From Apilactobacillus bombintestini (GTDB lineage Bacteria; Bacillota; Bacilli; Lactobacillales; Lactobacillaceae): 64,000 nt of DNA. The translations under genes were made by a program, and so were the position numbers. Positions 11,961 through 45,707 of the stretch are shown here, in pieces. The notes under the pieces were generated by a model that had not been told where the DNA came from, did not search any database, and saw only the letters and a list, made by a program, of their open reading frames with translations. The DNA is taken from the NCBI RefSeq assembly GCF_003627035.1, contig NZ_CP032626.1:992001-1056000 (forward strand), given 5' to 3'. Numbering within the stretch: the first letter of the stretch is position 1; each line of letters begins with the position of its first letter.

Positions 11961-14324
11961 TTATCTTTCGATGTTTTGTCTGATTTCAGCTTTCATGAAC
12001 AATCTTGTAGTATCGTAATCAATATCTGAAATCATTTCTTCAAACATTTGATAACCTTCACGTTGGTATTCAACTAATGGATTTAATTGACCATAACCTC
12101 TTAAACCAATGGATTGTCTTAATTGATCCATTTCATCAATATGGTCAGTCCAGTGAGAATCCACAACACGTAAAATAACTACTTTTTCGAATTCCAACAT
12201 TTGTTCTGGGTCATATAGTTCACTCTTCTTATCATCGTAAACTTTTTCAGCTAGTTCCATTAAGAACTTCTTAATTCTGTCGGCTGATTTATCTTTTAAA
12301 TCATCCAAACTAATCTTATCAGGACTAACTAGTGCACTAATTGCAAAGTCTAAAATAGTGCTTAAATCCCAGTCTTTACTATCACCTTGTGTATGCAAGT
12401 TAACAATACGGTTAATAGTACGCTTAATCATTGGCTTCAATACCCAATCTAGGGTCTTATCTTCATCAATGACTTTGTATCTTTCACCATAGATAACATC
12501 ACGTTGTTGTCTCATAACATCATCATATTGAAGAACTTGTTTTCTAGAATCGTAGTTGTTACCTTCAACACGTTTTTGAGCTGATTCAACTTGTTTAGTA
12601 ATTAAACGACTCTTAATTACAGCTGAGTCGCCATCTACCTTCATTCTTTCTAGGAAGTTCTTAATCTTTTCAGAACCGAAACGACGCATTAAGTCATCTT
12701 CAAGTGATAGGTAGAATTGTGAAAGACCTGGATCACCTTGACGACCTGAACGTCCACGAAGTTGGTTATCAATACGTCTGGATTCGTGTCTTTCAGTACC
12801 AATAACAGCTAATCCACCTACTTCAACTACGCCCGGTCCAAGTTTGATGTCAGTACCACGACCGGCCATGTTAGTAGCAATAGTAACTGCTCCCTTTTGT
12901 CCGGCGTTAGCAATAATTTGAGCTTCTTTAGCATGGTTCTTAGCATTCAATACTTCATGCTTAATACCTTCTTCATCAAGACGATGAGAAATGTATTCAG
13001 AAGTTTCAACAGCAACAGTACCAATTAAAATTGGTTGTCCCTTACTGTGTAATTCCTTAATCTTTTCTACTACCGCATCGAACTTAGATTTTAGAGTTGG
13101 GTATAGCAAATCAGGTTCATCCACTCTGGCTACCGGTTTATTAGTAGGAATGGAAATAACATCCATGTTATAAATTTCTCTAAATTCATCAGCTTCAGTC
13201 TTGGCAGTACCAGTCATACCAGCTAACTTACTGTACATTCTAAATAAGTTTTGGTAAGTAATATTAGCCATAGTCTTACTTTCTTCTTGAATAGGTACAC
13301 CTTCCTTAGCTTCGATAGCTTGGTGCAATCCATCAGAGAAACGACGTCCTTCCATAATACGACCAGTAAATGAATCAACGATAAGAACTTCGTTGTTAGA
13401 AACCACATAATCCTTATCTTTAATCATAATAAAGTTAGCTCTAAGTGCTTCATCCAAGTGGTGAGTTAGAGCTGTGTTATCAGTATCATATAAGTTCTTT
13501 AAATTGAAATACTTTTCAGCTTTTCTAATTCCTTGATCATTTAATGATACTGTCTTAGATTCCAAATCAATCTTGAAATCTTCTTTTTCTTTCAATGTCT
13601 TAGCAAATTGGTCAGCTTGCATGTATAGTTCAGAAGAACCTTTAGCTTGTCCAGAAATGATTAATGGAGTTCTAGCTTCATCAATTAAGATAGAATCCAC
13701 TTCATCGACAATAGCAAAGTTCAATGGTCTTTGAACCATGTCTTCTTTGTAAACTACCATGTTGTCACGTAAGTAATCAAAACCGATTTCACTATTAGTA
13801 GAGTAAGTGATATCAGCATTGTATGCTTCACGTTTTTGTTCTGAACCCAATTCAGTTAAGTTAACACCTACAGTTAAGCCTAACCAATTGTATAATTCAC
13901 CCATTTGAGTAGCATCACGTTGAGATAAGTATTCGTTAACAGTAATAACGTGTACTCCCTTACCTGCTAGGGCGTTTAAATATACAGGCATAGTAGCGGT
14001 TAAGGTTTTACCTTCACCAGTTTTCATTTCAGAAATATTACCTTCATGTAGAACAATACCACCCATAATTTGTACATGGAATGGAGTTAATCCTAATACA
14101 CGAGTAGCACCTTCTCTAGCTACCGCAAACGCTTCTGGTAATAAATCATCAAGTGTTTCACCATCTTGATAACGTTGTTTAAATTCGGGTGTTTTAGCTT
14201 TAAGTTCGTCATCACTTAGTTGTCTATATTCGTCAGCATAAGCTTCTACTTTATCAGCTAACTTGCTAAGTCTTTTGACTTCGTGCTTATCACTTTCAAC
14301 CCATTTTTTTAGAATGTTAGCCAT
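11961..14324 (-). CDS. secA: Preprotein translocase ATPase SecA
   Basis: ATPase motor that pushes precursor proteins through SecYEG. 787 aa. Walker [14 protein letters not shown] is near residues 101-113, DEAD-like [16 protein letters not shown] near 206-221, and helicase motif [15 protein letters not shown] near 520. It ends at EIRQNIER without the C-terminal cysteine zinc motif that binds SecB in other bacteria, as is common in lactobacilli. ATG start with GGAAGG upstream. The gene normally found just upstream in lactobacilli (hpf) is missing; comFC is the direct neighbour. Confidence 0.98.
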
Positions 14325-15127: not shown

Positions 15128-16452
15128 TTCAGTTTTTTCGCCAATCTATTCATATATTTTATTTGTTTAATTGCCTTCTTTATATTATTAGTATGAACAC
15201 TACTGTAAAAACTAACATCCCCATACGGACGATCTTTTTTTCGCCCCACTCTACCAGCTATCTGTACTAGTGAAGAAGCTGAAAAAACGTCATCATCTGC
15301 TCCTAAAATCAAAACATCAATTCCCGGAAAAGTAACTCCTCGTTCTAATATGGTGGTGGTAATTAAAAACAAAAGTTCTTCATTTCTCATTTGGCTTACT
15401 TTTTCCATTCTTTTTTCATCACTAGAATGCACTGTTCTCCATAATGAATTATCAAATGTTTTAGATAAAATTTCAGAGACTGGCTTTAAATCAGCAACAC
15501 GAGGAACAAATAATAAAAAGCGCTGTTGCTTATTTATTTTATCTTTAATGTTTCTAATTAATGACGCTGGTAATTTATTTTTAGTTAGCTGACCTCGCCA
15601 TTCTTTTACATGTCGATTCTTAATTTGAGGCAACAAGTGTCGATGAAAGCGTATAGGCAAGTAACTTACTCCTATCTTTTTTCTTTTAATTTGTTTCATT
15701 AACTCTTCTGAAGGAGTTGCCGTTAAATACAAAGTCGCGCCCTGTTCTTTAACAGCATTATTGGCTGCAAAATATAATGCTGCATTATCCACAAAAGGAA
15801 ATGAATCGACCTCATCAATAATTAATACGTCAAAAGCTTTATAAAATCGTAATAACTGATGTGTGGTGCATATTGTTAATTGACAATATTGGTATTTAAC
15901 CTCACTTCTGCCGTGTAATAAAATCATGGAAGTATTTGCAAATGCTTCTTTAATTCTTGGATAGAGTTCGACGCATACATCTACACGTGGAGATGCTATA
16001 CATATTCTTTTTTGTTGTTTTAATGCATCCTCGATTCCGAAAAATAACATCTCCGTCTTCCCCGCTCCAGTAACTGCCCATAGCAAATGTTTTTCACTAG
16101 AATTAAAAACTTTAATAATGTCTTTGGAACAGGCATCTTGTTCCTTAGTTAATTTTCCGTGCCAAGTCAGTACTGGATTTTTTATGTTAAAATCATTAGG
16201 TTCCTTCACATAACACAAAGGACTGTTTAGCGTAATTCTGCCTAAATTTATACATATTGGACAGTAATAATTATCATTAGGCATTTTAGCGTCTATATAT
16301 TTAGTTATTTGTCCACATCGTTTACAATAGATATGGTTGTGTTCAATTTTAATGGGAGTGTATTTTTGAACCGTTGATCTTTGAACCAGTGAATCACTCA
16401 CTAGTTTTTCATCGATATGTCTTCCATACAATTCAGAAATATTTTCTATCAT
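15124..16452 (-). CDS. comFA: DEAD/DEAH helicase-like DNA uptake ATPase ComFA
   Basis: Cytosolic ATPase that powers single-strand DNA import during transformation. 442 aa. It has an N-terminal four-cysteine zinc site (CKRC about 43-46, CPIC about 68-71), Walker A AVTGAGKTEM near 125-134, Walker B IIDEVD near 211, motif TATPS, and a C-terminal helicase domain with ERGVTFPG and QIAGRVGRK. ATG start with GGTGGTG upstream. Retention of comFA, comFC and sigH suggests competence genes are kept; whether the cell is transformable cannot be judged here. Confidence 0.95.
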   Translation of the reverse strand: MIENISELYGRHIDEKLVSDSLVQRSTVQKYTPIKIEHNHIYCKRCGQITKYIDAKMPNDNYYCPICINLGRITLNSPLCYVKEPNDFNIKNPVLTWHGKLTKEQDACSKDIIKVFNSSEKHLLWAVTGAGKTEMLFFGIEDALKQQKRICIASPRVDVCVELYPRIKEAFANTSMILLHGRSEVKYQYCQLTICTTHQLLRFYKAFDVLIIDEVDSFPFVDNAALYFAANNAVKEQGATLYLTATPSEELMKQIKRKKIGVSYLPIRFHRHLLPQIKNRHVKEWRGQLTKNKLPASLIRNIKDKINKQQRFLLFVPRVADLKPVSEILSKTFDNSLWRTVHSSDEKRMEKVSQMRNEELLFLITTTILERGVTFPGIDVLILGADDDVFSASSLVQIAGRVGRKKDRPYGDVSFYSSVHTNNIKKAIKQIKYMNRLAKKLK

Positions 16453-38091: not shown

Positions 38092-38142
38092 AAAAATGGT
38101 CCACACTAGACATTTAATTATCTAATGTGGACCATTTTATAT
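38092..38142 (-). terminator. Terminator after mprF
   Basis: AAAATGGTCCACA / TGTGGACCATTTT stem with a further internal hairpin, A/T flanks, 27 bp after the mprF stop. Confidence 0.8.
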
Positions 38143-41824: not shown

Positions 41825-41967
41825 CCCAAACTTTTTTTGGGATTTAATAAAAAATCCCTATGCCTACCTAGACATAGAGAAACCGTTTTAATGTCCTCGT
41901 TGGGAAATATTAAGACAAATTATTGCCACCCAAGTCTTAGGTAGATATCAAATTTATAACAAATAGT
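41825..41967 (-). promoter_or_regulatory. L10 leader with terminator/antiterminator
   Basis: The 140-base 5' UTR of rplJ-rplL. A terminator (stem CTATGTC / GGCATAG, 41858-41877, followed by six T residues) is mutually exclusive with pairing of its segment GTCTAGGTAG to CTACCTAAGAC near the 5' end (41934-41944; 10 bp with one bulge). The middle has TTGGG/CCCAA and TAAGAC/GTCTTA pairs typical of the L10-L12 binding fold. A last hairpin CCCAAA / TTTGGG (41825-41841) covers half the rplJ ribosome site. Matches the known Firmicute L10 leader concept. Confidence 0.85.
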
Positions 41968-44396: not shown

Positions 44397-44425
44397 ATAT
44401 TAGCATTTATATTTTTTTCAGTCAA
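44397..44425 (-). promoter_or_regulatory. rpmG-secE-nusG promoter
   Basis: Minus strand -35 TTGACT (44420-44425, overlapping the sigH stop), 17-bp spacer, -10 TAATAT (44397-44402). Confidence 0.75.
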
Positions 44426-45066
44426 TGATGTGCATCATTATCCCATTCACCTTGTAAATAATCAATCACTTCGCGAAGTTTGCTTCTAATATTTCTTCTA
44501 CAATTCATAAATTGCCTATCGCCATCTTTATATTTTCTACAGAATTGTTCTCTCATATTCAGTATGGCTTCACAGTTTTCATTATTTATTTTGATTAAAT
44601 TACTCTTTAGTACCTCTAATTCAAAATCAGTTAACTTTTTTATAAGTAATTCAAATATAATTTTAGTATCCAAATTTCTTAGTGGATCTATATTGCTTTT
44701 ATCTCTTACAGTATAAATACCACCCTGTTCTTCAATGGAAGACTCATAAATCATTTTATCTTCAGGTATTCTCTTCATAGCGTTTCTTCTGCGTAATTGA
44801 TCTTTATATCGATTAAAAACGCTGGACTTAAATAAAGTTCCAAAACTATTATTCATATTTTTATGATATTTTTTCAAATTGCGTATTAATATTATCGTGC
44901 ATTCCTGTTTCCAGTCATCCAACTCTAAGTCTGAGAAAGGATATCTACTCCATAACCCTACTATAAGTGGTAAATACTTATAAAAAAGTTCTTTGATGGA
45001 TTCTTCTTCTTTTCCATTGTGAAAATCTTGTATCAATTTTAAATCTAATTCATCAGTTCTTCTCAC
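44422..45066 (-). CDS. sigH: Sigma-70 family factor, SigH/ComX-like
   Basis: 214 aa from a GTG start. Region 2 includes LFYKYLPLIVGLWSRYP and DDWKQECTIILIRNLKKY (about residues 27-67); a region 4-like helical C-terminus (about 125-195) has ILNMREQFCRKYKDGDRQ. The position between yacP and rpmG is that of Bacillus sigH and of the lactobacillus SigH reported to switch on competence genes. The ribosome site is inside a long hairpin, suggesting control at the RNA level. Confidence 0.85.
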   Translation of the reverse strand: MRRTDELDLKLIQDFHNGKEEESIKELFYKYLPLIVGLWSRYPFSDLELDDWKQECTIILIRNLKKYHKNMNNSFGTLFKSSVFNRYKDQLRRRNAMKRIPEDKMIYESSIEEQGGIYTVRDKSNIDPLRNLDTKIIFELLIKKLTDFELEVLKSNLIKINNENCEAILNMREQFCRKYKDGDRQFMNCRRNIRSKLREVIDYLQGEWDNDAHH

Positions 45067-45067
45067 T

Positions 45068-45144
45068 AAAAAAGCTCCCTTCTCATTCGAATATATGTAT
45101 CACATTATGCATTACATACCGAACGAACAAGGGAACTATAGTTC
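45068..45144 (-). promoter_or_regulatory. Long hairpin with U-tract that buries the sigH ribosome site
   Basis: 5' arm GTTCCCTTGTTCGTTCG (45136-45120) pairs with 3' arm CGAATGAGAAGGGAGC (45089-45074) over about 16 bp with one bulged G; loop 30 bases; six T residues follow. The 3' arm contains AAGGGAG, the only ribosome site for sigH's GTG at 45066. Overlapping the 5' arm is a perfect palindrome GAACTATAGTTC (45133-45144) that could form a competing helix. It may equally be the yacP terminator. Confidence 0.75.
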
Positions 45145-45182
45145 ATTTATATTTATTAAAACTAAATATAAATATTTATATT

Positions 45183-45707
45183 TTATTTATCAGAAAGATT
45201 ATCTCGAAGATGCTCCAACTCTAATAACTGGTCTTGTGACCATGGAGTAATTCTAACTCTAGATTGGTGGGTATAATTATGAACTTGATGCTTAATTTCT
45301 TGTTTAGAACGCTTAACATCCCTCAACAATTCTCTTGCAGATATTCTTAATGCTCCCGCTGAAAAAACCGTCCATTGTTCAGCTTGATCAGAAGTAACCA
45401 CCACTACTTGTACAAATCGTGATTGTTTTTGTCTAGCATAAGCTTCGATGTAACTATCTGCAGTTTCATCTTTATTAGTCCATATAATATCTAAATTGTG
45501 TTTATTATCTTTTTTGGATAATCCCGGCACATACATAGCATCAAAAATAATTTGCATATCTAAATCACGATATTTTTTATATTCAGCTATGATATCAATT
45601 AATCTATCTCTAGCATCCGCTAAGCGATCCGCCAGTTTTAATTGATTTAATTCAGGCCAATTTCCAATCACATTATAGCCATCAATTAGTAGTAACTGTT
45701 TTTTCAT
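45183..45707 (-). CDS. NYN-domain ribonuclease YacP/Rae1
   Basis: 174 aa. PIN-like NYN fold with LLIDGYNVIGNWPEL near 5-19, DMQIIFDAMYVPG near 50 and VVTSDQAEQW near 103. Bacillus Rae1 cleaves mRNA in the ribosomal A site. Last gene of cysS-mrnC-rlmB-yacP; 13 bp after rlmB. ATG start. Confidence 0.9.
   Translation of the reverse strand: MKKQLLLIDGYNVIGNWPELNQLKLADRLADARDRLIDIIAEYKKYRDLDMQIIFDAMYVPGLSKKDNKHNLDIIWTNKDETADSYIEAYARQKQSRFVQVVVVTSDQAEQWTVFSAGALRISARELLRDVKRSKQEIKHQVHNYTHQSRVRITPWSQDQLLELEHLRDNLSDK

Follow-up and report, generated by a model that had tools for sequence, protein, structure and literature searches.

What controls a competence sigma factor whose only ribosome site lies in the arm of a hairpin? 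The question is raised by the gene sigH of Apilactobacillus bombintestini, which is located in the stretch of DNA analysed here (the window: 64,000 nucleotides (nt), positions 992,001 to 1,056,000 of contig NZ_CP032626.1). An original prediction from the letters of the window had proposed that the region 45068-45144, if not a plain terminator of yacP, may be a new regulatory element, in which a terminator and a buried ribosome site form a switch in the sigH leader. Our analysis points to a different arrangement. sigH probably has a promoter of its own of the sigma-A type, which would be repressed by LexA and would start transcription inside the hairpin, so that the hairpin acts on RNA reading through from the upstream gene yacP. 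Judged from the sequences, the stronger finding is not the hairpin, which was partly foreseen by work on Staphylococcus aureus, but a conserved operator of the LexA type that sits on the promoter of this competence sigma factor.

The proposed operator and promoter region of sigH

All features of the locus are on the minus strand. The gap between the end of yacP (45183) and the GTG start codon of sigH (45066) is 116 nt and not the 40 base pairs (bp) assumed in the original prediction, so that a promoter fits. The gap contains the palindrome GAACTATAGTTC (45133..45144; 45132-45145 as a 14-mer), which looks like the core of the Bacillus-type LexA box and which we propose as the core of a LexA operator; the Cheo/DinR box is CGAAC-N4-GTTCG. 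Directly beside it is a predicted -35 element, TTGTTC (45125..45130), followed after 17 nt by a predicted -10 element, TAATGT (45102..45107). The transcription start would thus be expected at 45093..45096, about 7 nt beyond the -10, which would give a leader of about 28-30 nt.

This arrangement is strictly kept within the genus. Of 16 genomes searched, one had no sigH match, and the remaining 15 loci all have the palindrome and, in register with it, the TTG of the -35. The full pattern 5' of sigH, i.e. GAAC-N4-(A/G)TTC, two bases, TTGnnn, exactly 17 nt and TAnnnT, is likewise found in 15/15. In the genome of the window, recA and a gene for a Y-family polymerase have the same palindrome and lexA has a near variant. 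Nine exact palindromes occur in this genome, and the intergenic ones are those at recA, the Y-family polymerase gene and sigH and one in an unexplained place. The genome also encodes a LexA, which by its domains (LexA_DNA_bind and Peptidase_S24, and NCBIfam lexA TIGR00498 above the cut-off) is predicted to cleave itself.

From these elements the following course of events can be proposed. In an undamaged cell, LexA would occupy the operator that abuts the -35 and keep sigH silent. Upon DNA damage LexA would cleave itself and the sigH promoter would open. Transcription would then begin within the apparent hairpin and yield a sigH mRNA with a leader of about 28 nt, in which the Shine-Dalgarno sequence (SD) is free. 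The hairpin would be whole only in RNA that enters from the yacP operon, whose transcription it would terminate and in which it would also hide the SD, so that no SigH would be made from read-through.

Survey of the family

The LexA matrix used for scoring was trained on the regions upstream of recA and lexA from the 16 genomes of the genus and 30 others, and no sigH site was included. A clear site was present in 87 of the 92 loci, and these yielded the consensus CGAACATATGTTCG; excluded were the lexA loci L021 and L029 (contig ends nearby) and L247 and L248 (no box), and the recA locus L205 (no box). With this matrix the 14-mer of the window scores 10.4 (shuffle p 0.003). The SigH protein diverges fast, with 28-35% identity to the window protein across the genus, and a profile from the 15 genus members matches 378 of 397 family genomes. 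The sigH upstream regions that were sampled comprised 150 loci from 38 genera, 15 of them from the genus and 135 from outside it (15+60+30+30 in total), and a site was called within 160 nt 5' of sigH at a shuffle p of at most 0.05.

By this measure, 99 of the 150 loci (78/120 and 21/30), belonging to 22 of the 38 genera, have a LexA-matrix site upstream of sigH, as compared to 1/149, 6/149, 6/149 and 13/150 for four control stretches of the same loci. The operator at sigH matches the LexA box of the same genomes, and it abuts the predicted promoter. Outside the genus the box of lexA itself is mostly GAAC-N4-GTTTG, which on the other strand is the AAAC-N4-GTTCG form found at sigH. In 78 of the 99 boxed loci, TAnnnT follows the beginning of the box at a distance of 38 nt; among the 17 distances compared, no other one accounts for more than 19 loci. 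Given this single fixed distance, box and promoter appear to be one unit. At one of the loci, L175, the scan of the region 5' of sigH gave no LexA-type box.

LexA is nearly universal in the family, with a match in 393 of 397 genomes (390 above the cut-off). Four sampled genomes have sigH and no credible LexA (G391, G374, G048 and G032), and the box is absent from all four. G391 (locus L323) is 99% complete and has no LexA match and no sigH box, and 7 of the 11 genomes of its genus, g37, are boxed. Genome G183, which is 76% complete, has a box and a weak LexA match.

The output of sigH seems to be competence, as the original prediction had assumed when it called the sigma factor competence-type. 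comGA was found in 16/16 genomes of the genus, and in 14/16 it carries TACGAATA or TNCGAATA close upstream; the exact TACGAATA is in the comGA promoter of the window's own genome. We take TACGAATA at this position to be the streptococcal competence (ComX) box.

Several observations weigh against LexA control of sigH. The exact palindrome does not outnumber the reversed pattern in the genome (9 vs 12 per strand), the sigH box ranks only third in the 64 kilobases of the window behind two better, intragenic sites, and the window's own -10 is weak. No box was seen in 16 of the 38 sampled genera, nearly all of which have LexA, and the box is likewise missing from the g37 genomes G383 and G350, which have LexA. 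In loci outside the genus the left half often reads AAAC and is then a weaker half-site. The genera g16, g37 and g9 have a poor -35 beside the box, which would suit an activator equally well. The test with LexA-less genomes is small, and as g23, g34 and g18 are boxless in every sampled member, G391 alone is informative. G050 (loci L092, L205 and L247) has a divergent LexA, no box at recA or lexA and a good box at sigH; either its LexA keeps only the sigH target, or another protein reads the box. Finally, the text of PMC3364868 describes a sigH null mutant of L. sakei without an ultraviolet (UV) phenotype.

The hairpin and the buried ribosome site

The hairpin in front of sigH is real and beyond chance. 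It spans 45073..45137, with the 5' arm AGTTCCCTT (45137-45129) made up of the -35 and the operator's right half, and the 3' arm AAGGGAGCT (45081-45073) containing AAGGGAG (45075..45081), the sole SD of sigH. Six U (45068..45073) follow, which resemble the tract of a terminator and would serve as such for RNA reading through from yacP. These parts of the original prediction are borne out by the sequence and by folding: a segment of 89 nt reaches -29.4 kcal/mol (z = -5.3) and one of 143 nt -37.6 kcal/mol (z = -5.75), and in each case none of 200 shuffles was as good. When both strands of the window are considered, T6 occurs 143 times, and the 72 nt 5' of the sigH T6 give the second-best fold of all. 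A stable stem with a U tract directly after it has the form of an intrinsic terminator; the hairpin was not listed by a simple terminator scan with a loop limit of 3-8 nt. In window RNA that contains both arms, the probability that the SD is unpaired is 0.009, versus a mean of 0.48 in shuffled sequences (p ~0.01), and an inverted repeat that buries the SD is also a feature of the sigH 5' untranslated region (UTR) of the S. aureus type.

Whether the hairpin could act as a switch in the sigH mRNA depends on where transcription starts. The predicted start lies past the 5' arm, and RNA beginning there lacks this arm and forms no large hairpin (-5.2 kcal/mol). The original prediction was to be given up if sigH transcripts began too far downstream for the hairpin to form, and the predicted start would place them there. 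What stands of the switch is thus the terminator-like, SD-burying hairpin, and what probably falls is its operation within the sigH mRNA. The palindrome, which had been thought to form a competing helix, is no serious rival either, since as a 12-nt RNA it only forms a 4-bp hairpin of -0.9 kcal/mol; we rejected it in this role, and its relevance would be as DNA. A known RNA family was also ruled out for this region, as no Rfam family matched 45068-45144 at its gathering score, and a search for related loci returned a single remote and irrelevant one.

Conservation of the two arms, which had been suggested as a check, gave a divided answer. When the genus members are aligned, pairing in the basal helix amounts to 80.8%, and 5 of its 13 pairs show changes on both sides, but conservation does not extend to the upper stem (42.9% paired). 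The covariation of the whole structure is 0.202 vs 0.151 +/- 0.016 in shuffles (0/500 as high) and at most 0.112 when the structure is slid along the alignment; kin sequences without structure may also exceed alignment shuffles, and the structure was taken from one aligned row. GTTC is followed by a G at all other loci of the alignment but by a C in the window; this C pairs with the SD, where relatives have a G-U pair or none, and a non-G at this position was not a significant marker of stronger SD burial (p 0.11).

Across the family, SD burial was computed for 67 of the first 78 boxed loci, i.e. those with an SD by rule and enough distance; loci without SD were omitted. The probability of an unpaired SD is 0.30 with the promoter sequence vs 0.40 when this is shuffled, and 11 of the 67 loci reach p<0.05. 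The median is 0.28 with the promoter sequence vs 0.59 in RNA from the predicted start. An exact complement to the SD of at least 6 nt occurs within the promoter at 19 of 87 loci (7.9 expected from shuffles), just upstream at 3/87 and in the coding sequence at 2/87; for at least 7 nt the numbers are 9, 0 and 0. Ten of the 19 loci fall into two genera, g37 (6/7) and g16 (4/7). When SDs are permuted across species, the complementarity of SD and box gives p 0.001 over the 87 loci and 0.03 within the genus. A control stretch 5' of the box also passes the genus-wise test (p 0.007), so that base composition accounts for some of the signal; that of the spacer is larger (1.3 vs 0.6 kcal/mol). Four genus members (L011-L014) have no strong complementarity. 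Since complementarity between SD and promoter recurs in some relatives, the hairpin may be a selected guard on read-through RNA, if not a general one.

The loci L115-L118 of g16 and L164, L167, L300, L304 and L311 of g37 mostly have a CTCCTT-like complement to the SD in the spacer of the sigH promoter, just before the -10. These sequences look like independent versions of the window hairpin, which would hide the SD in read-through RNA only.

Alternative explanations

A different protein, activator or repressor, might bind the box, whose likeness to an SOS box would then be a coincidence. The right half, GTTCGCTTG, is better conserved than the left, the poor -35 of some genera and the box retained by G050 at sigH only would agree with such a regulator, and some genera have an AATTGGT element 5' of the box. 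We nevertheless regard this as unlikely, because a matrix trained without any sigH site still separates sigH upstream regions from controls, the palindrome is common to recA and the Y-family polymerase gene of the same genome, and none of the four LexA-less genomes has the box. It is a little less probable still that transcription of sigH begins before the hairpin and that an RNA, protein or temperature signal opens the hairpin and frees the SD, as in sigH of S. aureus (PMC3486894). Such a switch would account for the SD burial in RNA with both arms, the paired basal helix with covariation above all 500 shuffles, and the complementarity of SD and box that beats permutation. Against it stand the 5' arm, which doubles as the operator and -35 in a promoter that 22 genera have kept, the unconserved upper stem, the four genus members that lack strong complementarity and the only mildly low accessibility of the SD in the family.

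Least probable, in our view, is a plain terminator of yacP that overlaps the SD by chance and provides insulation only. A stem followed by U6 is what such a terminator would show, and some relatives (e.g. L086 and L089) were seen by eye to have a hairpin and T-run that directly follow yacP and precede the promoter of sigH. However, the conserved box and promoter would be left unexplained. Termination of read-through RNA is itself compatible with a LexA-repressed sigH promoter, where it would be the role of the hairpin.

Relation to known systems

The sigH site resembles those of the LexA/SOS regulon of Bacillus and the Lactobacillaceae in its operator sequence, in its overlap with the promoter as at recA and lexA of the same genomes, and in the presence of an S24-type LexA. 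It differs in its target, a competence sigma factor and not a repair gene. Ravcheev 2013 (PMC3616900) predicted 13 LexA operons in Lactobacillaceae, of which the main text names parEC, addBA and nrnA as new; 'sigH' does not occur in this main text, a statement that does not extend to the tables. In the literature as judged by title or start of abstract, no paper was found on a regulation of lactobacillar sigH or comX by LexA; this covers neither subscription papers nor the PMC3616900 tables and is no proof that such control has gone undescribed. For L. sakei, PMC3364868 reports the same gene, locus and competence regulon, and 'SOS' is absent from the text of the paper. According to this text SigH was made artificially, and competence genes were not naturally induced in the laboratory conditions used.

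The hairpin is not new in kind. In S. aureus a 13-bp inverted repeat likely hides the ribosome site of sigH and restricts its translation, as shown by deletion (text of PMC3486894). Gene, repeat over the ribosome site and translation block are alike; there, however, the repeat acts within the sigH mRNA, whereas here the 5' arm precedes the predicted start, so that the hairpin would act only on read-through RNA, and a U tract is added. With an intrinsic terminator it shares the stem and U6, but it overlaps elements of the gene that follows, namely its operator, promoter and SD.

If sigH is indeed under a LexA operator, a testable inducer of competence in lactobacilli can be named, DNA damage, and the SOS response and DNA uptake would be joined via a single repressor. 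Read from the sequences, many lactobacilli may begin to take up DNA when their own DNA is damaged. A stronger version of this idea holds that SOS directly opens competence in many lactobacilli through LexA on sigH, and that anti-SD bases in the promoter (the window hairpin and, in two further genera, the CTCCTT-like sequence that precedes the -10) form a second lock, by which only transcripts from the LexA promoter are translated; we give it somewhat less than an even chance. If true, a toggle gene inside a housekeeping operon would be insulated in a compact way, by bases of its promoter that mask the SD whenever RNA reads through. Streptococci are not known to have LexA and use competence in place of SOS; here the two would be wired in series.

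Other features of the locus

The genome is a single contig of 1,289,211 bases, and the gene order on the minus strand is rlmB, yacP, sigH, secE and nusG. sigH (44422..45066) is an open reading frame (ORF) of 214 amino acids with the Pfam domain Sigma70_r2 (E 4.8e-6), and it fits the sigH locus of L. sakei and other lactobacilli as described in the text of PMC3364868. yacP (45183..45707) is upstream in the same direction and matches NYN_YacP of Pfam (E 2.7e-52). A search for plasmid copies found none.

Some further observations were made during the scans. The two best LexA-matrix sites of the window (15366-15379 and 12194-12207) lie within a comFA-like helicase gene and a secA-like gene, both named by eye, and are probably chance hits. 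A palindrome GAACAACTGTTC at L046 (G000:C1:1261083-1261094), flanked by a glyA-like gene and by a short ORF that has no Pfam match, is either a further LexA target or chance. A conserved AATTGGT-like element precedes the LexA-type box by no more than 60 nt at the majority of the loci L084-L092, L095-L097, L099-L100, L104 and L011-L016, belonging to g14, g26, g32, g36 and part of g1; it is absent in the window and could be the site of a second regulator. The best fold preceding any T6 tract of the window, at 38096 on the minus strand (-35.9 kcal/mol), exceeds the sigH hairpin. An ordinary ribosomal protein L10 leader (Rfam RF00557) is located at 41840-41959, also on the minus strand.
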